The notes beneath the pieces were generated by a model that was given only the letters and a program-made list of their open reading frames with translations, had not been told where the DNA came from and made no database searches. 54,514 nucleotides of DNA, taken from assembly GCA_021789915.1 (NCBI GenBank), contig JAJYIV010000005.1, positions 1 through 54,514 of the forward strand, given 5' to 3'. The position numbers and the translations under genes are program-made. Positions 17,258-40,363 of the stretch are shown one piece after another. This DNA comes from a bacterium (GTDB lineage Bacteria; Patescibacteriota; Patescibacteriia; UBA9934; GWF2-40-263). The number at the start of each line of letters is the position of its first letter. Position 1 is the first letter of the stretch.

Positions 17258-17365
17258 CACCTATCAAGAGAGCGGCGAGGGTTCTGGCCCTGTGACCCGC
17301 CGGCAACCGGTTTGCGCAAGCAAACACGGTGCCACATCCAGCCCTGAACGGGGAAAGATAACGTG
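17258..17365 (+). ncRNA. SAM-I (S-box) riboswitch
   Basis: ctatcaagagagcggcgagggttctggccctgtgacccgccggcaaccgg...cacggtgccacatccagccc...gaaagataacgtg; upstream of metK. Confidence 0.93.
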
Positions 17366-17524: not shown

Positions 17525-18592
17525 ATGCTCTCCACCTCCGAAGCCGTGGCTGTCGGGCATCCCGACAAAGTCTGCGACCAGATTTCCGACGCCGTCCTGG
17601 ACGCCTGCCTGGCACAGGATCCGCTCTCACGCGTCGCGATCGAAGTCTTGGGCGGGCATGGCGCCATCACCGTCTGCGGCGAGTTGACGACGAAGGCGAA
17701 AATCAACGTCCGCGACATCGCGCGCGACGTCTATCGCTCCTGCGGCTACGCGGACGAGCCGGGCATCTTCGTGAACGTCGTGGAGCAGAGCCCGGAAATC
17801 GCGCGCGGCGTGGACGCCGAGGGCGCGGGCGACCAAGGCATCATGGTCGGCTACGCCTGCAATGAGACGCCGGAGCTGATGCCGCTCCCCGTCATCCTGT
17901 CGCGCCGGCTCGTGCAGGCGATGGGCGCGCGCGACGGCAAGGCGCAGGTGACGGTCGACAGGACGCGTGTGACGCGCGTGCTCACCTCCGTGTGCGACGC
18001 GGGCGATTTCGACCAAGCGGCGTTCGAGAAAAAGGTAATTGAGATCATCTCTCCGTTTGTCGAGACACCATTTCACTCGTCATCGCGAGCGACCAACGGA
18101 AGCGAAGCAATCCTGCAGCGGAAAGATTGCTTCGTCGCTCGTGAACTCGCTCCTCGCAATGACGAGGCGGGGATTTGGCTCCGCAATCCGAACGGTGCGT
18201 GGACGGTCGGCGGATTCGCCGCGGACACGGGGCTGACCGGACGCAAGCTCGCCGTGGACAATTACGGGCCGAATATCCCCGTCGGCGGCGGATGCTTCTC
18301 CGGCAAGGACGCGACCAAGGTCGACCGCAGCGCGGCCTACATGGCGCGCAAAATCGCCGTCGACATGCTGCGCCGCACGGGCGCGCACGAGGTGTTCGTC
18401 CACTTGGCCTACGCGATAGGCGTCGCAGAGCCGCTCATGGCCGTTGTCACGCTCGACGGAAAGCAGGAACCCGTGCGAGGATACGACCTGCGCCCGCGCG
18501 CCATCATCGAACGCCTCGATTTGGGCCGCCCGCAATTCCGCGAGACGGCAAAGTACGGCCACTTCGGCAACGGCTTCGCGTGGGATGCGTGA
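17525..18592 (+). CDS. metK: S-adenosylmethionine synthetase with internal repeat-derived segment
   Basis: GHPDKVCDQISDAVLDACL, GDQGIMVGYACNETPELMPLP, GGGCFSGKDATKVDRSAAYMARKIA; riboswitch upstream. Confidence 0.93.
   Translation: MLSTSEAVAVGHPDKVCDQISDAVLDACLAQDPLSRVAIEVLGGHGAITVCGELTTKAKINVRDIARDVYRSCGYADEPGIFVNVVEQSPEIARGVDAEGAGDQGIMVGYACNETPELMPLPVILSRRLVQAMGARDGKAQVTVDRTRVTRVLTSVCDAGDFDQAAFEKKVIEIISPFVETPFHSSSRATNGSEAILQRKDCFVARELAPRNDEAGIWLRNPNGAWTVGGFAADTGLTGRKLAVDNYGPNIPVGGGCFSGKDATKVDRSAAYMARKIAVDMLRRTGAHEVFVHLAYAIGVAEPLMAVVTLDGKQEPVRGYDLRPRAIIERLDLGRPQFRETAKYGHFGNGFAWDA
18076..18166. repeat. palindromic repeat inserted in frame in metK
   Basis: ctcgtcatcgcgagcgaccaacggaagcgaagcaatcctgcag...agattgcttcgtcgctcgtgaactcgctcctcgcaatgacgag. 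Confidence 0.8.
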
Positions 18593-26166: not shown

Positions 26167-28242
26167 TCAGAGAGAATCGGGGACGTCGGTCTCGAGCTCG
26201 CGCAGCCAGGCGTCGGGCGCCGCGTCCGACGGCATGCGCCAGTCCCCGCGCGGACTGACGGAGGTCAGCCCAACCTTGGGCCCGTCGGGCGCGCAGGAGC
26301 GTTTGAACTGGTTGGCGAAGAAGCGCCGCAGGAACACGCCGGCCCACTTCTTGAGCTCGCCGATCTCGTACGGCCGATGCGTGAGCGGGTTTTCCCGCGA
26401 GCCGAAGGCGTGCCAGGCGAGCCGCAGGATGCGCGACGGCTCGAAGCCGTAGCGCAGGAACGAGCGGCCGAAAAAGTCGTGCAGCTCGTACGGGCCGACC
26501 AGCTCCTCGGTCTTCTGGGCGATCTTCCCCTTCGCGTCCGCCGACGTGAGCTCGGGCGAGATCTCGAGCGAGAGCACGAGCTCGAGCGCCGCACGCGTGT
26601 CGGGCTCATGCGTGAAGACCGCGTCCTTTGCCCACCCGATGAGGGAGGAAATGAGCGTCTTCGCCACGTCCGCGTTGATGCCGTAGTGGCTGAAGTGGTC
26701 GGCGCCGTACGTGCACCAGCCGAGCATCAGCTCGGACAGGTCGCCGGTGCCAAGCACCAGGCCGCCGTGGCGCGCGCAGGCCGAGAACAGGATGTGCTTG
26801 CGCGTCCACGCCTGCACGTTCTCGAAGAAGAGATCCTCCGCGTCGGTCCCGCGGCGACAGCCGAACATCTTGAACGTCTCGTCGGCGATCGCGGCGATCG
26901 GAATTTCCATGAACGTCGCGCCGACCGCCTTGATGAGGTCGCAGGCGGCCCGGTACGAGGCCTTCGTGGTGCCGAATCCCGGCATGGTGATGCCGATGAG
27001 GTTCGACCGCGGGAGCCCCAGCATGTCCAGGGCGTAGCAGGCGACGAGCAGCGCGTGCGTCGAGTCGCGCCCGCCGGAAACGCCGAGGATGATCTTGCGG
27101 CGCTCGGGAGGCAGGTTTTCCAGGCGGCGCATGAGCGCCGTCGCCTGGATGAGGAACGTCTCGCGGCAGCGCTCGTTGCGCGTGCGACGGTCGTGCGGGA
27201 CGAACGGATGCGGGTCGACGTCGCGACGCAGCTTCCGGTAGACCGCGTCCCGCGCGCCGCCGAGCGGCTGCGGGAACGCGACCCGGCGGAACGGCCGCGC
27301 GTTGTCGGCGGCGTTCTGGCCGAACGACCGCCACGTCATCCGCTCCTGGACGAGCAAGGTCGGATCGACGTCGGCGACGACGACCTGTCCCTCTTTCTTG
27401 ACCGGCCCCTTGGCCCCGAACACCATCCCGTTGAACCGCTTCGCACGGGTAAGCAGCGTCCCGTTCTCGGACACGAGCCCGTCGCCGTCCCACGCGAGAT
27501 CCGTCGAGGATTCGCCGTAGCCGGCCGCGGCGTACATCTGCACCGCCACGTTCTTGCCGGAGGAACCGTCCACCAGCAACTGCCGGTAGTCGGCCTTGCC
27601 GATGGTGATGTCGGACGCGGACAGGTTCGCGAGCACGGTCGCACCCGCGAGCGCGGCATGCGCCGAAGGCGGAATCGGGACCCAAAGGTCTTCGCAGACC
27701 TCGTTGTGCAGAACGAAGGCCGGATTCGCCTCCGACGCGACGAGGATGTCGAGACCGAACGGCACCGTCTGGCCGCACAGCGTGACTTCGTTGATGAGCG
27801 CTTCGCGGGCCGCGGCGAACCAGCGGCCCTCGTAGAACTCGCGGTAGGTCGGCGGATAGGCCTTGGGCGCGACGGACAGGAAGCGGCCCTCGATGAGGGT
27901 CGCGGCGACGTTGAACAGCGACGTGCCGACGAGGAGCGGCAGGCCGACCGAAACGGCCATGCCCTTCCAATCCTTGGACCGGTTGAGCAGCGTCTCGAGC
28001 GCCTCGAGCGACTCGCGCAGCGTCACGCGCTGGTGGAACAGGTCGGCCATCGAGTAGCTCGACAGGCCGAGCTCCGGGCACAGCGCGTAGCCGGCGCCCT
28101 GCTTCCAGGCGCGCTGCAGCGCGCCGACGTGATACGCGGCGTTCTGCCGCGGATCGCCCACGCACACGCGCGGAATCGCCAGGGCCACGCGCACAAAGCC
28201 GTGCGTGCGGACGTCGAGGAAACGAGCGGATTCGGATGTCAT
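26167..28242 (-). CDS. nadE: glutamine-dependent NAD+ synthase
   Basis: Nitrilase-like N-domain (ALCPELGLSSYS, LHNEVCEDLW, LANLSASD) and synthase domain (IILGVSGGRDSTHALLVACYALD). Confidence 0.95.
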   Translation of the reverse strand: MTSESARFLDVRTHGFVRVALAIPRVCVGDPRQNAAYHVGALQRAWKQGAGYALCPELGLSSYSMADLFHQRVTLRESLEALETLLNRSKDWKGMAVSVGLPLLVGTSLFNVAATLIEGRFLSVAPKAYPPTYREFYEGRWFAAAREALINEVTLCGQTVPFGLDILVASEANPAFVLHNEVCEDLWVPIPPSAHAALAGATVLANLSASDITIGKADYRQLLVDGSSGKNVAVQMYAAAGYGESSTDLAWDGDGLVSENGTLLTRAKRFNGMVFGAKGPVKKEGQVVVADVDPTLLVQERMTWRSFGQNAADNARPFRRVAFPQPLGGARDAVYRKLRRDVDPHPFVPHDRRTRNERCRETFLIQATALMRRLENLPPERRKIILGVSGGRDSTHALLVACYALDMLGLPRSNLIGITMPGFGTTKASYRAACDLIKAVGATFMEIPIAAIADETFKMFGCRRGTDAEDLFFENVQAWTRKHILFSACARHGGLVLGTGDLSELMLGWCTYGADHFSHYGINADVAKTLISSLIGWAKDAVFTHEPDTRAALELVLSLEISPELTSADAKGKIAQKTEELVGPYELHDFFGRSFLRYGFEPSRILRLAWHAFGSRENPLTHRPYEIGELKKWAGVFLRRFFANQFKRSCAPDGPKVGLTSVSPRGDWRMPSDAAPDAWLRELETDVPDSL

Positions 28243-28343: not shown

Positions 28344-29585
28344 TCAGACGGCGCACGCGACGAAGGGGCTCTCGGTGTAGCCGAACACCTCCTTGAAGAA
28401 GGCGACACGGTCGGCCGGGCCGGTGATCTTGGCCGGGTTGTCCGAGAGCTTCACGGTCGGAAACCCGTTGGCCATGACCACCTTCATCACCAGCGAAAGC
28501 GTCTTGAACCCGACGTCGTTGGTGAGCATCGTCCCCCAGCCGAAGCCGGTGCCGATGCGGCCGCGGAAGCGCTCGTGGAGTGCGACGATCGTCTCGGCCG
28601 TCAGGCCGTCGCTGAAGACCACGGTCGCCGTGCGCGGGTCGATGCCGTGGCGGCGATAGAACCGGATGGCGCGCTCGCCGTAGGCGAACGGGTCGCCCGA
28701 ATCGTGCCGGACGCGGCGGTAGCGTTCCGCCCACTCCTTGGTCGTGGTGCGGAAGAAGTACTCGCTGCCGAACGTGTCCGTCAGGGCGACGGCGAGATCG
28801 GGCCCGTACCGGTGCCACCATAGCTCGTGTGCCGTCTGGAACGAGCCGCGGATCTGTTCCGGCTCGTTCCCGAACAGGTTCGCAAGCACCATGGTGATCT
28901 CGTGGGCGATGGTGCCGGTCGCTTTCGTCCCGATCTCCTTGGCGTACAGGACGCTGGACGTGCCGGCGAGCAGCTCGGGCGCCTCGTTCATGACGATCTC
29001 GAGCACCCGCTTATGCCAGCGCGTGGAAAACGCGCGGCGCGTACCGAAGTCGGTGAACGCGATCTGCTTGCTCTTGAGCAGCTTCAGCTTGGAACGGAGG
29101 CGCCGCTCCCCTTCCTGCCACACCGCGGCGTCGCGCAGTCCCGCTTCCTTCTGTTTCGCGCGGAAGTAAAGCTCGTTCATCACCTTCAAGGAATAGATCT
29201 CCCACGGGGACGACGTCGGCCACGTCCCGCTCGCGACGATCTCGTGCTGGCCGTCCGCCGTGCGGATCTCGTACGCCGGCAGGCGGAAGTCCCGCAGGAA
29301 ATCGACGTACGCCTTGGTGAACAGGCCGGGCTTGACGTTGGCGCCTGCGAGCAGGAACCGCGCTTCCTCTTCGCTGAGCGTCAGCGAACGGACGTGGTCG
29401 AGCTGCTCGCGCAGGGCCTCGACGGGCACGTAATCCGCGAACCGCACGCTCGTAGTGCGGTTCTTGGACGCGAGCGTGACGGGAACGTCCGGGAACAGCT
29501 CTCGGATGAACTGCTGCATCGTCAGCTTGTAGAGATCCGTGTTCAACACGGAGTCCGCGATCGGGTTGTCGGGCGAAAGAGCCAT
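28344..29585 (-). CDS. pncB: nicotinate phosphoribosyltransferase
   Basis: NTDLYKLTMQQFIRELFPDVPVTLASKNRT...DFGTRRAFSTRWHKRVLEIV...GTSSVLYAKEIGTKATGTIAHE. Confidence 0.95.
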   Translation of the reverse strand: MALSPDNPIADSVLNTDLYKLTMQQFIRELFPDVPVTLASKNRTTSVRFADYVPVEALREQLDHVRSLTLSEEEARFLLAGANVKPGLFTKAYVDFLRDFRLPAYEIRTADGQHEIVASGTWPTSSPWEIYSLKVMNELYFRAKQKEAGLRDAAVWQEGERRLRSKLKLLKSKQIAFTDFGTRRAFSTRWHKRVLEIVMNEAPELLAGTSSVLYAKEIGTKATGTIAHEITMVLANLFGNEPEQIRGSFQTAHELWWHRYGPDLAVALTDTFGSEYFFRTTTKEWAERYRRVRHDSGDPFAYGERAIRFYRRHGIDPRTATVVFSDGLTAETIVALHERFRGRIGTGFGWGTMLTNDVGFKTLSLVMKVVMANGFPTVKLSDNPAKITGPADRVAFFKEVFGYTESPFVACAV

Positions 29586-29669
29586 CGCTTCGTCTCCTGC
29601 TCCGCCGCCCACTCCATGTGGGAGGCGGGGAAAAGACGGCAAGCCGAGAGACCGGCTTGCCAGGAAAGA

Positions 29670-30344
29670 TCAGAACGTCAGATGCCGGAGCCGCGCGTCT
29701 TCGCGCAGGTGCTGCAGGAGGATGAGCGAGCTGGCGTGGGTGATCTGACCGCAGTCGAGCAAGGCGAAGGCCTCGCGAAACGTCAGCTCCCACACCTCGC
29801 CGGTCTCGTGCCCGTCGCCGCGCGGGTGCAGCTCGCCGACCGGGCCCCTCAGCGGCGCGAGGTACAGGTGGAGCTGTTCCGTGGATCCGCCGACCGACGG
29901 GAAGACCGTGGCCACGTGGACGAACGTCTCCGCGGCGACGTGCAGGCCCGTCTCCTCCGCGAGCTCGCGCGCCGCGGCCGCCCGCGGCGGCTCGCCTTCC
30001 TCGATCATGCCCGCCGGCACGCCCCACGCCACGACGACGTCGCGCGGCGCGGCGATCTCTTCGGGGCTTGCGCCTTCCGCGAGCGCGCGGCGCACCGCCG
30101 CCCGGCCCTCGGGCAGCAGCGCGTACGCGCGCAGATGCCGCGGGGCGCACAGCAGGTACGCCAGGCCGCGCTCCCAATCCACCGGCAGCATCGCGCAGGC
30201 GCCGCCGCGCTCCATCAGGTCGAAGCGGTACGGCCGGTCGTCCGGCTGGAAGTCGAGCAGGTTCAGGAATCCGCGGCGCACCACGCGCAAATCGCGCAGG
30301 CGGAACGTTTCGGGCATCGTGCCGAGTTGTGCCACGCGCCTCAT
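29670..30344 (-). CDS. NUDIX hydrolase
   Basis: VPAGMIEEGEPPRAAAARELAEETGL (NUDIX box). Confidence 0.88.
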   Translation of the reverse strand: MRRVAQLGTMPETFRLRDLRVVRRGFLNLLDFQPDDRPYRFDLMERGGACAMLPVDWERGLAYLLCAPRHLRAYALLPEGRAAVRRALAEGASPEEIAAPRDVVVAWGVPAGMIEEGEPPRAAAARELAEETGLHVAAETFVHVATVFPSVGGSTEQLHLYLAPLRGPVGELHPRGDGHETGEVWELTFREAFALLDCGQITHASSLILLQHLREDARLRHLTF

Positions 30345-30424: not shown

Positions 30425-31810
30425 TCAGGCGGAAGGAAACTGGAAGGCAAGGCGCTTCACCGGCAGATCGTCCTCGGGGGCGAAGACGAGTTCGGCGGCG
30501 GCCGTGCGGCTGCCGCGGACCTCCATCGCCGCGGCCGGACCGAGGTCCAGCGAGTCGACCATGGCACGCACCGGCCGTTTGTCCGCATCCAGAAGCTCGA
30601 AGCGGATCATCGTGTCGGAGGGCAGGTTCACCGGCTTCCAGCCGAGCGGCTGGTCCACGTTGGAACCGGCGAGCACGAGGCCCGGCACGTCGAAGAGCGG
30701 CGCGGCGCCCATGGCGCGCACGTAGCCGGTCGAGCCGATCGGCGTCGCGACGATGGCGCCGTCGGCGCGCAGGCACGCAATCCGCTCCTGCCCGTCCACC
30801 GAGACGCGCAGCCAGGCCGTCTGCCCGCTGGCGCGTTCCAGCCAGGCGTCATTGACGGCCACGTGCTCCCGCGCGGAGCCGTCGGCGCGCTCGATGCGCA
30901 CGCGCAGGAACGGCGTCCGCCGCATGCGCAGGTCCGTACGCGCGAAGAAGGCGCGCGGATCCGGCGGCAGACGGTTCATGAAGAAGCCGCGATGGCCGGC
31001 GTTCAGGCCCACGAACGGCAGGCGGCGGCGCCCATGCGCGCGCAGCATCTCCAGGAAAAATCCGTCGCCGCCGATCACGGCGATGCAGGTCGGCGGGCCC
31101 GGAGGCGCGGCCGCCTGAATCTGCGCGGCCAAATGCATCGCGTCCGGCTTCTCCGGATCAGCCAGCGCCAACGGGCGCTGCAAGACGTCGGAGACGACGA
31201 CCGCCTGGTCGGGCGGCGGCGCGCCGCGGTACAGACGCCACCGGGCGGCGTACGCGGCCACCGCCGGGCTCAGCAAATCGTCCGCCGCCTGGCGATGGAA
31301 CAGCCGGTCGCGCGCCTGCGTGCTCGATCCTTCCGGCGTGTCGCCGAGGATGCGCGCATGCGGCGGCAGGTCGTCCGGCGCCAGGGGATACGGCGCGCGG
31401 CGGACGACGGCGAAGTTCAGCCGCTCCCACAGCTCGCGGCCGCCAAGCCACCTGGCCTGGATCTCGGAAGCGCCGCGCGCGCCGCCGGCGAGCAGGTCGG
31501 AACCGACCACGTGCCACACCTCGTCGCCCGCGCTACGGAAGCGGGCGTCGAGCTCGGCCGTGCGCGTGAAGACGTCCCGCTCCAAATCGTCGAGCAGGAC
31601 GTGGACGCGCGGCAGGCCGCCGAAGGCGAGATCCGCCATCGCGGCGCGGTGGCCGGGAGAAACGTCGTCGACGCTTTCCTTGTCCGGCCGGCGGCCGCAC
31701 GGAATCACGTGCACGCCATCGAAGTGCGCGGCAGCCAAGCGAGCCACCGCTTCGTGCAGACGGGTCGGCGGATTGAAGCTGCCGCCGAAGAGCGCGATGC
31801 GTTTGGCCAA
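30425..31810 (-). CDS. bifunctional nicotinate-nucleotide adenylyltransferase (NadD) / NAD kinase fusion
   Basis: N-term RIALFGGSFNPPTRLHEAVARLAAAHFDGVHVIPCGRRPDK; C-term CIAVIGGDGFFLEMLRAHGRRRLPFVGLNAGHRGFFMN...PIGSTGYVRAMG. Confidence 0.88.
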   Translation of the reverse strand: MAKRIALFGGSFNPPTRLHEAVARLAAAHFDGVHVIPCGRRPDKESVDDVSPGHRAAMADLAFGGLPRVHVLLDDLERDVFTRTAELDARFRSAGDEVWHVVGSDLLAGGARGASEIQARWLGGRELWERLNFAVVRRAPYPLAPDDLPPHARILGDTPEGSSTQARDRLFHRQAADDLLSPAVAAYAARWRLYRGAPPPDQAVVVSDVLQRPLALADPEKPDAMHLAAQIQAAAPPGPPTCIAVIGGDGFFLEMLRAHGRRRLPFVGLNAGHRGFFMNRLPPDPRAFFARTDLRMRRTPFLRVRIERADGSAREHVAVNDAWLERASGQTAWLRVSVDGQERIACLRADGAIVATPIGSTGYVRAMGAAPLFDVPGLVLAGSNVDQPLGWKPVNLPSDTMIRFELLDADKRPVRAMVDSLDLGPAAAMEVRGSRTAAAELVFAPEDDLPVKRLAFQFPSA

Positions 31811-31938
31811 TGGACGCTCCTTGAAAAGGTTCGCTTTCAGCCACGGCCTCCGCCTTCATGGCGGGAGCCGTGGAAAAAGGCCGTCGCGCTCCACGAGAAG
31901 CGGAGGGAGACGGCAAGAACGTCAAATGGAAAGAGCGC

Positions 31939-32670
31939 TCAGGGTGCGACGATGTCCTTCGACGCCACGAAGCGAATGTCCTTCGCCCGCAGGCGATCGA
32001 TCATCGCCTCGACGCTGCCCGGGATTGGCACCGAACGCGTGGCATCCTCCACGAGGACGACCTCGAAGCCGAGGTCCGCCGCGTCGAGCGCCGTGAAGCC
32101 GACGCAGAAGTTGAGCGCGAGCCCCGCGACGAAGAGGCGCGTGACGCCGTAGCCGCGCAGGATCCCGTCGAAGCCCGTCGACCGTCCGAGGTTGTCCGTG
32201 AAGGCGCTGTAGCTGTCGCACTTCGGGTCTTCCCCCTTCGAGAAGATGGCGCAGCCGAGCCATGTCAGGCTTCGATCCAGCCGCGTCTCCTCCCAGTGCG
32301 GGAGGCCGTGATAGGACCACGGCATCTGCTGCTGCCCGCGGCAGTGCTCCAGGTACCAGCGCAGGTACGCCAGGTCGAAGGACGGCGAGGCGACGCGGTT
32401 CGGCGCCCAGCCCTTGATGCGCGCGAGCGTGAGCGGTTCGCCGTTCGCCTCGACGCCCTGGTACGAACCGGCGAAGCCGACGTGGCCGAACGGATGCACG
32501 TCCTCCGTCGCGAAGCGCAGCTTGAAGCTGCCGGCGAGATCTTCGACCACCGGAACGATCTCGTCGCCGCCGGGGACGGCGAGGCCGCCTCCGGGCATGA
32601 ACGTCGGCGTGACGTCTACTGCAAGAACGGCATCGTGGCCGCGATCGATCAAGATCCTGTTCTCTTCCAT
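31939..32670 (-). CDS. pncA: nicotinamidase / isochorismatase family
   Basis: HDAVLAVDVTPTFMPGGGLAVPGGDEIVPVV...FSKGEDPKCDSYSAF...LFVAGLALNFCVGFTALDAADLGFEVVLVEDATRSV. Confidence 0.9.
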   Translation of the reverse strand: MEENRILIDRGHDAVLAVDVTPTFMPGGGLAVPGGDEIVPVVEDLAGSFKLRFATEDVHPFGHVGFAGSYQGVEANGEPLTLARIKGWAPNRVASPSFDLAYLRWYLEHCRGQQQMPWSYHGLPHWEETRLDRSLTWLGCAIFSKGEDPKCDSYSAFTDNLGRSTGFDGILRGYGVTRLFVAGLALNFCVGFTALDAADLGFEVVLVEDATRSVPIPGSVEAMIDRLRAKDIRFVASKDIVAP

Positions 32671-32848
32671 GCCTTCCTCCTCGTGAAAAGAGCGTGTGAA
32701 CGTGCCGTCTTCCGCCAAGATCGGGGCCAAAAACGACGGGCGACCTTAGCAGAAACACGACAGACCGTCAACCGGCGGCGGCCGGCTTCCGCGTCCCGCC
32801 CGGGGGCCGGGGGCGCGGAAGGAGCCGCCGGACGGCTCCGCCTCTTCG

Positions 32849-32869
32849 TTTGTGTAACTTTGACACGAA
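32849..32869. promoter_or_regulatory. putative NrtR operator 2 (upstream of the pncA-led operon)
   Basis: tttgtgt-aactttg-acacgaa; same 7-7-7 layout as 34613-34633. Confidence 0.7.
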
Positions 32870-32939
32870 GTAAAATCGCCGTCAAGCGCCTGGTTTTCCG
32901 CCGCGAAAAAACCGGCCGAAGCCGGTTGGAGAACGGGGA

Positions 32940-33824
32940 TTACGCGCGCGCCAGGCGCAAGCCGCACTCGGGCGGCAGCACGTACCGCGCCATCGCCTCG
33001 AGCACGCTGCCCGTTTCCGTCACGACGACGGGAACCTGGTCGCGCGGCAGCAGGGAGGCCGTCCGCTGCCCCACCGTCCAGACCCGCTGCTCGAAGAACG
33101 CGACGGCATCCTCGATCTTGCCGCTTCCGTCCTCCGCGGGCGGCCCGCCCGACGAGGAAATCAGGCGCAGCACGTTGACGGGGATGAGCCGCTTGCGATG
33201 CTTGAAGACGGCCGAAATGTCCGTCTCGTACGCCTGAAGGCGGCCGTTGGCGGCGATGAGCACGTCCAGCGACGCCACGAACGCGTCCGAATACGCGGCC
33301 GCCGTTTCCGCGACGTAGACCGGCTGCTCGTCGTCCGCCACGTAGAAAAGGTACGGCAGGCAGTTGAAGCCGAGCTGTCGGCAATTCGTCTCGCGCGCTG
33401 CCGCCATCACCGCGGCGTCCACGCCCATGTCGGACGCGCCGTGGACCAGGACGATCTCGATGCCGTCGAAGGAGCGCCGCAGGCGGCGGACGGCCTGGAC
33501 GAGGATTTCCTGGCACAGGATTTCATACGCGCGCGGCTGCACGCCCCACGCGCGGCACTGCTCCGGCGTGAGGCGGCTGTAGCCGTTCATGCCAAGCACG
33601 AAGGTCGACGGCGTGCGCGCCAGATGCGCGTTGACGGCCACGGGCCGTTCGTCCGGCAGGTAGATCTTCTTGCGAAAGAACCGTTTTCGATACGTGCGGC
33701 GCCCGACGGGCTGATCCGGCGTCAGGCACTCGACCCCCGGCAGTGGCGAAAGGGAGAGATCCGTTCCTTCTTCCTCCGCGTACACCGCGACGCCGGCGCC
33801 CGTGCGTTCGATCCGATAGGCCAT
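32940..33824 (-). CDS. uncharacterised LOG/SLOG-like Rossmann-fold protein
   Basis: IEIVLVHGASDMGVDAAVMAAARETNCRQLGFNCLPYLFYVADDEQPVYVAETAAAYSDAFVASLDVLIAANGRLQ; fold assignment tentative. Confidence 0.6.
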   Translation of the reverse strand: MAYRIERTGAGVAVYAEEEGTDLSLSPLPGVECLTPDQPVGRRTYRKRFFRKKIYLPDERPVAVNAHLARTPSTFVLGMNGYSRLTPEQCRAWGVQPRAYEILCQEILVQAVRRLRRSFDGIEIVLVHGASDMGVDAAVMAAARETNCRQLGFNCLPYLFYVADDEQPVYVAETAAAYSDAFVASLDVLIAANGRLQAYETDISAVFKHRKRLIPVNVLRLISSSGGPPAEDGSGKIEDAVAFFEQRVWTVGQRTASLLPRDQVPVVVTETGSVLEAMARYVLPPECGLRLARA

Positions 33825-33945: not shown

Positions 33946-34608
33946 TTACAGCACATCCACGAACGCGGGCGCCCGCTTGGCGAAGCGGTACAGCGCCGCC
34001 GGACGGTGCGCACAGCCCGCCGTGCGTCTCCCCGTCGGCACCACGAGGCCGAGCGCAAGCAGCTTGCGCAGGAAGTTGCGCTTGTCGAGCGCCTGGCCGA
34101 GAAACGCCTCGTACGCCGCCTGCAGGTCGGACAGCGGAAACGCCTTCGGCAGCAGCGACCAGGCGACGTTGGAGTAGCCGAGCTTGGCCCGCACCCGCGC
34201 GAGCGCCGCGCGCGCCATCGCGCGGTGGTCGTAAGCCAGCGGCGGCAAGCGGGAGGCCGGCCACCAGCGAACGTCCGCGTAGCGATCCGTCGTCTTCAGC
34301 GCGACGCCCGCGGCGGGCACGAGCGCGAACCAAGCGACGGTGACCACGCGCCCGAGGGGGTCGCGATCCACGGCGTCGAAGGTGCCCAACTGTTCCAGGT
34401 ACGCATCAGTGACGCCCGTCTGCGTGCGCAAAATGCGGCGCGCGGCCGCTTCCGTCGTCTCGCGCGCGCCGATCACGCCTCCCGGAAAGGCCCACCGGCC
34501 CGCGAAGGGCTTTTTTTTCATCTGCACGAGCAGCACGTGCGGCGTGCCGCCGATCACCGTGAAGATCACGGCGTCGGTCGCCACGCGCGGCAGGGAATCG
34601 TCAGCCAT
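33946..34608 (-). CDS. nrtR: NrtR-type NUDIX-HTH transcriptional regulator of NAD metabolism
   Basis: NUDIX-like FPGGVIGARETTEAAARRILRTQTGV plus C-terminal wHTH (FLGQALDKRNFLRKLLALGLVVPTG). Confidence 0.88.
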   Translation of the reverse strand: MADDSLPRVATDAVIFTVIGGTPHVLLVQMKKKPFAGRWAFPGGVIGARETTEAAARRILRTQTGVTDAYLEQLGTFDAVDRDPLGRVVTVAWFALVPAAGVALKTTDRYADVRWWPASRLPPLAYDHRAMARAALARVRAKLGYSNVAWSLLPKAFPLSDLQAAYEAFLGQALDKRNFLRKLLALGLVVPTGRRTAGCAHRPAALYRFAKRAPAFVDVL

Positions 34609-34612
34609 AGTG

Positions 34613-34633
34613 TTCGTGTTAAACCGACACGAA
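34613..34633. promoter_or_regulatory. putative NrtR operator 1 (upstream of nrtR)
   Basis: ttcgtgt-taaaccg-acacgaa perfect 7-bp inverted repeat. Confidence 0.75.
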
Positions 34634-39313: not shown

Positions 39314-40363
39314 TTACGTCCCAAACGGCGCTTCCCACGGGAACTCGGCCCGCCCGAAATGGCCATACGCCGCCGTCGCGCGGTAGATCGGACGATCGAG
39401 CCGCCAGCGCTCGACGATCGCGTCGGGACGAAAATCGAAGTTCCGCCGCACCAGCTCGCCGAGGCGCACCGTCGTGCCGCGCGCCTTGTCCGCGGCGCCG
39501 AGCGCCTCGACGGAGATCGGCTCCGCGCGCCCGGCGGTGTACACAAGCGTGACGATGGCGGAGGATACCAGGCCCTGCTCCACCAGGAACCGCGCGGCGG
39601 CGCGCGCGGCGTCGGCGCCGGCGCGCTCGGCGGCGCGCGGATCCTTGCCGGACAGGGCGCGGTCGCAAAACGGCACGAGGCCGCCGTAGGCGTCCGCCCC
39701 GAGACGTTGCCCGTTCATGCCCGAGGCCGAATGGAAGCCCGCGTGCGTGAAGGCGCCGGCGGGGTTGACGTGGACGTGCATGTTTTCCGTCGAGCCGGCG
39801 ACGGGCGCGACCACGCGCTCGAGGATCGCGAGCCGGACGTCGTTCGGCGCCACCTCCGGCGCATGAGAGGCCAGTACCGTCACGGCGCGCATCGCGTCCT
39901 TCTCCATCGAGACCTGCACGCACCCGTCCGGCCGCAGCCAGGAAAAGGACGGATCAAAACGGCGCGCGTCGTCGAGCCGACGCGCCAGCGCGTGCGCGTA
40001 CGCGAGCGGACGCGGCAGCATCTCGCGCGTTTCGCGCGTCGCGTATCCGTTCACGACGACGGCGCCCGACGGGCCGGACAAGCCGCGGCGCTCCTCGGAA
40101 GGCTTGTCCACGTTCACGAACACTTCCAGCTCGTCCCCATACCCGATGTCCGCGTACACGGAACGGGCCAAGGCCGCCATGTCGAAATCCGCGGCCGAAT
40201 CCCATTCGCCGGCGATCACGAGCATGCCGTGCGAACCAAGCACGGAAAAGTTCGTGCGCGAAGACGGGTCGCGGCGCAGACACTCGTCCACCAGCGCATC
40301 GGCAATCTGGTCGCACATCTTGTCGGGATGGCCCGGGAGGCATGATTCGGCGGTTTTGCGCAT
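39314..40363 (-). CDS. divergent second S-adenosylmethionine synthetase-like protein
   Basis: GHPDKMCDQIADALVDECLRRDPSS...YGDELEVFVNVDKPSEERRGLSGPSGAVVVNGYATRETREMLPRPLAYAHAL...ALSGKDPRAAERAGADAARAAARFLV. Confidence 0.85.
   Translation of the reverse strand: MRKTAESCLPGHPDKMCDQIADALVDECLRRDPSSRTNFSVLGSHGMLVIAGEWDSAADFDMAALARSVYADIGYGDELEVFVNVDKPSEERRGLSGPSGAVVVNGYATRETREMLPRPLAYAHALARRLDDARRFDPSFSWLRPDGCVQVSMEKDAMRAVTVLASHAPEVAPNDVRLAILERVVAPVAGSTENMHVHVNPAGAFTHAGFHSASGMNGQRLGADAYGGLVPFCDRALSGKDPRAAERAGADAARAAARFLVEQGLVSSAIVTLVYTAGRAEPISVEALGAADKARGTTVRLGELVRRNFDFRPDAIVERWRLDRPIYRATAAYGHFGRAEFPWEAPFGT

Follow-up and report, generated by a model that had tools for sequence, protein, structure and literature searches.

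NadD and NAD kinase (NADK), essential enzymes of almost universal occurrence, are targets for antibiotics and normally carry out separate, non-adjacent steps. On the route leading from nicotinamide through nicotinate, NaMN, NaAD and NAD to NADP, NadD takes the third step, NadE the fourth and NADK the fifth. Bifunctional proteins of NAD(P) metabolism are known, namely NadM-Nudix (PRK05379), the NADP phosphatase-NAD kinase (PRK14076) and NadR, which combines NMNAT with ribosylnicotinamide kinase, but none of them joins NadD to NAD kinase. Known NAD salvage operons controlled by NrtR carry nrtR beside pncA, pncB, nadE and a Nudix gene. The same company of genes is found here; the locus differs from those operons in bearing nadD-nadK as one gene and an operator-like sequence of the form found in this lineage. 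No description of a NadD-NADK fusion was found in the open-access literature, and the fusion is best read as a novel combination of two enzymes that are themselves known.

The window studied here is the whole stretch of 54,514 nucleotides that was analysed, belonging to a genome that is probably patescibacterial, judging by its size (1.06 Mb at 96% completeness; relatives have 0.5-2 Mb) and by its relative in Ca. Sungiibacteriota. The fusion gene is a single uninterrupted ORF of 461 codons on the minus strand (Table 1). An earlier sequence-only reading had given its coordinates and its length of 461 aa exactly, omitting the minus strand, the operon and the standing of the fusion as a family-wide form in Verrucomicrobiaceae. 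Codon-position GC of the gene (0.76/0.52/0.89) is near that of its same-strand neighbours. Family searches with the plus-strand reading of the same interval returned zero matches, and the plus strand was thus ruled out as the coding one. Foreign contamination was also rejected, as the GC content of the contig (~0.66) fits that of other contigs of the genome (0.59-0.68). Elsewhere in the window, a SAM riboswitch (Rfam RF00162, 57.6 bits) at 17259-17364 (+) closely precedes an ORF at 17525-18592 (+) that resembles S-adenosylmethionine synthetase, and a second, divergent ORF of this kind is located at 39314-40363 (-).

Table 1. Features of the nadD-nadK locus and of the surrounding NAD salvage cluster, in window coordinates.
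Feature	Position	Strand	Evidence and remarks
nadE, glutamine-dependent NAD synthase	26167..28242	-	PRK02628 3.6e-231, over cut-off
pncB, nicotinate phosphoribosyltransferase	28344..29642	-	PF04095 1.1e-47; TIGR01514 over cut-off
Nudix hydrolase, ADP-ribose pyrophosphatase-like	29670..30344	-	PF00293 5.8e-13; TIGR00052 1e-11
nadD-nadK fusion gene	30425..31810	-	TTG start at 31810; open frame, families, orthologous fusions, AlphaFold2 model
NAD kinase domain and stop codon	30425..31201	-	Residues ~204-461; PRK04761 on residues 240-458; Foldseek; motifs
NadD (NaMN adenylyltransferase) domain	31220..31810	-	Residues 1-197; TIGR00482 on residues 7-194; PDB 1kam, 5db4
RBS-like AAGGAG	31817..31822	-	6 nt before the TTG of the fusion; read from sequence
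pncA, nicotinamidase	31939..32730	-	PF00857 1.2e-16; PRK11609 4.5e-28; start may be further downstream
Candidate NrtR operator TTTGTGTAACTTTGACACGAA	32849..32869	.	Before pncA-nadDK; exact match; played no part in deriving the pattern
Terminator-like hairpin ACCGGC-TTCG-GCCGGT and T run	32911..32926	-	After the ORF at 32940-33818; sequence read directly
Conserved 292-aa protein	32940..33818	-	Homologues in the same cluster of L016 and L017
nrtR, Nudix-related ADP-ribose-responsive repressor	33946..34608	-	ATG at 34608; PF21906 NrtR_WHD 7.2e-21, PF00293 NUDIX, NF050029 2.7e-38
Candidate NrtR operator TTCGTGTTAAACCGACACGAA	34613..34633	.	Between promoter-like boxes and nrtR start; exact match

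The N-terminal half has the fold, the GGSFNPPxxxH motif, the conserved Trp and the SSTxxR motif in common with NadD (TIGR00482; PDB 1kam), from which it differs in being fused to an NAD kinase, in its divergence and in a score below the equivalog cut-off. The full 194-position TIGR00482 model is covered (E-value = 6.6e-15) at 55.6 bits against a cut-off of 112.45, and PDB entry 1kam is matched at 5e-9. The active-site residues T16, H19, K44, W121, S163 and R167 are present in the window protein. In 37 fusions compared, H19, K44, R55, D105, W121, S163 and R167 are all invariant, with W121 aligning with the Trp of Bacillus subtilis NadD. Unlike in NadD, position 16, where the (H/T)xxH motif starts, is Gly in most fusions (34/37); the window protein has Thr there. 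A weak TIGR00482 match on another contig of the genome (G000:C3) was considered as a second NadD and turned out to be NadM; this second nucleotidyltransferase is an NMN adenylyltransferase of the NadM type, which gives the genome a pyridine mononucleotide adenylyltransferase besides the NadD half.

The C-terminal half shares the GGDG, N(E/D) and GST(A/G)Y motifs with NadK/PpnK of the alphaproteobacterial type and does carry an NAD kinase match, with NCBIfam PRK04761 hitting residues 240-458 (E-value = 2.3e-37). It differs from that kinase in forming one half of a fusion and in remaining under the equivalog cut-off (128.5 vs. 211 bits); by these scores it is a relative of the PRK04761 family and not a member. 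In the 37 fusions, G247-G248-D249-G250, G359 and S360 are invariant, while N320 is kept in 36 and T361 in 35. NAD kinases were also matched among PDB sequences (1yt5, 1e-12). Of the Pfam families, CTP_transf_like (PF01467) passes in the N-terminal half (E-value = 3e-7, 31.1 bits vs. a 21-bit cut-off), but NAD_kinase (E-value = 2.7e-4, 21.7 vs. 25.5 bits) and NAD_kinase_C (E-value = 1.1e-4, 22.3 vs. 23.7 bits) fall slightly short; close relatives with the same fused architecture do pass the PF01513 cut-off. The second PF01513 match of the genome (G000:C34), tried as another NADK, is a relative of diacylglycerol/lipid kinases. Several genomes of the family of the window also encode a lipid-kinase/NADK-superfamily protein of ~250-260 aa (L176 820-1599 (-), and L177-L180), in which GGDG is changed to GDD or GND.

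AlphaFold2, run on the window protein aligned with loci from a genome scan, modelled the 461-aa chain with confidence (mean pLDDT 91.5, pTM 0.89), only a few residues separating the two domains. Foldseek ranked NAD kinases first (E-value = 2.5e-16), with target-normalised TM values of 0.75-0.82 for many of the best of these matches. No PDB chain spanning both halves occurred among the sequence matches. HMMs, PDB matches and motifs, including every motif that had been quoted for the two enzymes, bear out the original claim of a NadD followed in frame by an NAD kinase within one ORF. The product is very probably a bifunctional NaMN adenylyltransferase/NAD kinase. Genome comparison, sequence and model show the two folds, their catalytic motifs, the gene neighbourhood, the kept architecture and, in Verrucomicrobiaceae, a lack of detectable separate copies; from these we infer both activities and the substrate preference.

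The minus-strand cluster around the fusion reads nrtR, a 292-aa ORF, pncA, nadD-nadK, a Nudix hydrolase, pncB and nadE, and its core is conserved in relatives of the window. Searches of Pfam and NCBIfam gave no match for the 292-aa ORF, which has homologues with 52% (L016) and 30% (L017) identity. A glycine-rich motif in it hints at a Rossmann-like fold that binds nucleotides, and a single-sequence AlphaFold2 model was uninformative (pLDDT 34.8). Direct reading of the sequence upstream of nrtR in the window revealed TTCGTGT-N7-ACACGAA, a site that a palindrome scan had missed; TTTGTGT-N7-ACACAAA, of the same form, precedes nrtR in G021 and G003. The resulting pattern TTYGTGT-N7-ACACRAA matches the window at exactly two places, 34613-34633 and 32849-32869, against 0 matches in 100 shuffles; by nrtR in further relatives the palindrome is exact in G035 and G066 and has one mismatch in G027. 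Promoter-like boxes occupy 34661-34633 upstream of nrtR, and a TTGACG box is found just upstream of the palindrome preceding pncA. Both copies are predicted NrtR operators, and control of the fusion by NrtR is well supported at the level of sequence. With a hairpin and T run after the 292-aa ORF, pncA-nadDK looks like the beginning of its own transcription unit; terminator-like hairpins between some of the cluster genes count against one shared transcript. The co-regulation that had been proposed earlier is supported by the location of the fusion in a salvage cluster with nrtR and by the palindromes shared between nrtR and pncA-nadDK.

In the pathway that we propose, PncA would convert nicotinamide to nicotinate and PncB would turn this into NaMN, which the N-terminal domain of the fusion would adenylate to NaAD; NadE would then form NAD, and the C-terminal domain would phosphorylate NAD to NADP. 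The NrtR repressor presumably controls the cluster by binding to the TTYGTGT-N7-ACACRAA operators. Fusion would fix the ratio of the entry enzyme to the NADP-forming enzyme and place both under a single switch, and we infer fixed stoichiometry with joint control as the conservative reading of the arrangement. Channelling, which had also been suggested earlier, is not supported: NADK can use the product of the NadD half only after NadE, a distinct protein with its gene close by, has amidated NaAD, and in the Verrucomicrobiaceae loci that were read no salvage gene adjoins the fusion. The remark of the sequence-only reading that the two steps are non-consecutive, with NadE between them, agrees with the established order. 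A simple hand-over of the intermediate is thereby excluded, unless NadE docks or the kinase accepts NaAD.

Two other substrate assignments would bring the fused steps together. According to the first, which appears unlikely, the NadD half would mainly adenylate NMN to NAD, making the steps consecutive and channelling possible. It draws on the fact that some NadD-type enzymes accept NMN, on the adjacency of the steps that would follow, and on the confident overall AlphaFold2 model (pTM 0.89), but it is opposed by a cluster that supplies NaMN (PncA, PncB) and contains NadE, that is, by the deamido route, by the separate NadM for NMN in the same genome, and by the Trp matching that of B. subtilis NadD, which is invariant in the fusions. 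According to the second, for which we see very little chance, the kinase half would act on NaAD, or shuttle with bound NadE, so that NaADP would be made and then amidated by NadE to NADP; if this were true, the fused steps would be consecutive and NADP synthesis would be re-ordered and channelled in these bacteria. The pathway context favours NaMN over NMN as the substrate of the predicted NadD half.

Relatives of the window protein share 34-43% identity with it and the identical in-frame architecture. Scanning genome contigs with the window protein alone as the query found nothing; a profile built from eight fusions recovered them. By this profile, full-length fusions are present in 9/43 genomes of the family of the window, as well as in G327, from another family of the same phylum, and in L025 (Ca. 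Sungiibacteriota, a Patescibacteria lineage). In the Verrucomicrobiaceae, the family of Prosthecobacter, 58/68 genomes bear the full-length fusion, and the count rises to 65/68 when fragments, several of them at contig ends, are included. Among the Verrucomicrobiota beyond that family it was detected in at least two further genomes (G765, L023), being otherwise essentially confined to Verrucomicrobiaceae. Salvage genes were absent beside the fusion in the Verrucomicrobiota loci that were read, so its value there would be independent of a salvage operon.

Separate copies of the two enzymes were sought in the same groups. Canonical NadD over the cut-off occurs in 56 of 59 genomes spread across Verrucomicrobiota; in the Verrucomicrobiaceae, TIGR00482 yields no NadD over its cut-off in any of the 68 genomes, and the listed matches to NadD all fall within the fusion. 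The only PF01513 match over the cut-off in four Verrucomicrobiota carriers is likewise the fusion. No separate canonical NADK was seen in Verrucomicrobiaceae by the fusion-profile search, in which ordinary Verrucomicrobiota NADKs score ~90-110 bits and the few extra Verrucomicrobiaceae matches ~26-32. In nearly all Verrucomicrobiaceae, each enzyme thus seems detectable only as part of the fusion. Within the 43 genomes of the family of the window, PF01513 over the cut-off hits only fusions and, in G022, a single NADK on its own, whose gene has pncA on one side and pncB on the other. In the phylum of the window at large, few genomes have NadD (9/145). In G035 (L009 / L020), a standalone second NadD copy lies just upstream of a fusion broken into two frames. 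A ~621-aa protein encoded beside nadE in another two members of the phylum (L254 1144-3009 (+), L255 541-2412 (-)) combines a NadD-like domain (TIGR00482 E-value = 1.1e-16 in L254) with a PRPP-loop-like motif, DDDIATGYT, in its C-terminal region; this is possibly a different NAD-pathway fusion of an adenylyltransferase with a phosphoribosyltransferase.

These data also bear on whether both halves work. One half might be inactive and serve as a regulatory sensor, the NADK half for example sensing NADP(H) and restraining the NadD half; NADKs are often feedback-inhibited, and scores of the window protein below the equivalog cut-offs would fit such a role. We regard it as highly improbable, as the catalytic residues of both halves are nearly all kept in 37 fusions and a separate NadD or NADK was not found in Verrucomicrobiaceae. 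That a sequencing or assembly error, or chance read-through, joined neighbouring genes is practically negligible, for even if the G035 genome, with its fusion split into two frames and its second NadD copy, indicates that the genes can separate, full-length in-frame fusions (~460-480 aa) number at least 69 and come from separate assemblies, some on contigs of hundreds of kb, and this conserved architecture refutes it. With the in-frame fusion conserved in tens of independent genomes and no frameshift artefact behind it, the protein seems to be a genuine bifunctional enzyme that is old and has been widely retained.

Phylogenetic analysis placed the fused NADK halves in one clade (100/99), apart from the ordinary NADKs of Verrucomicrobiota and Patescibacteria and with alphaproteobacterial PRK04761-type NADKs as its sister (97/91). 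Fused NadD halves similarly share one clade (100/99) with a few standalone NadDs of Patescibacteria, apart from canonical NadDs, and the standalone copies of G065, G066, G115, G035 and G327 are interspersed with the fused halves. A clade of fused NadDs separate from the Patescibacteria standalones was not recovered, yet it was not rejected either (AU p 0.16). As each half falls into a single clade, a single origin of the fusion is probable, with Patescibacteria and Verrucomicrobiota sharing it. The lone NADK of G022 nests within the fused-NADK clade (AU p 0.027 against a position outside it), which suggests that the NadD half was lost there secondarily. The Verrucomicrobiota fusions belong to one shallow clade (98/97), lying within deeper Patescibacteria fusions in the NADK tree and so suggesting the direction of transfer; monophyly of the Patescibacteria fusions was not rejected (AU p 0.12). 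Transfer into the ancestor of Verrucomicrobiaceae, where the fusion would have replaced both native genes, is favoured by these trees, not proven.

A fusion of single origin would be a natural experiment on why NADP formation and the onset of NAD assembly should be coupled in cells. It is apparently the sole source of both enzymes in nearly an entire family of free-living Verrucomicrobia, which have it in common with tiny Patescibacteria, and it may represent a case of core cofactor enzyme exchange between Patescibacteria and Verrucomicrobiota.
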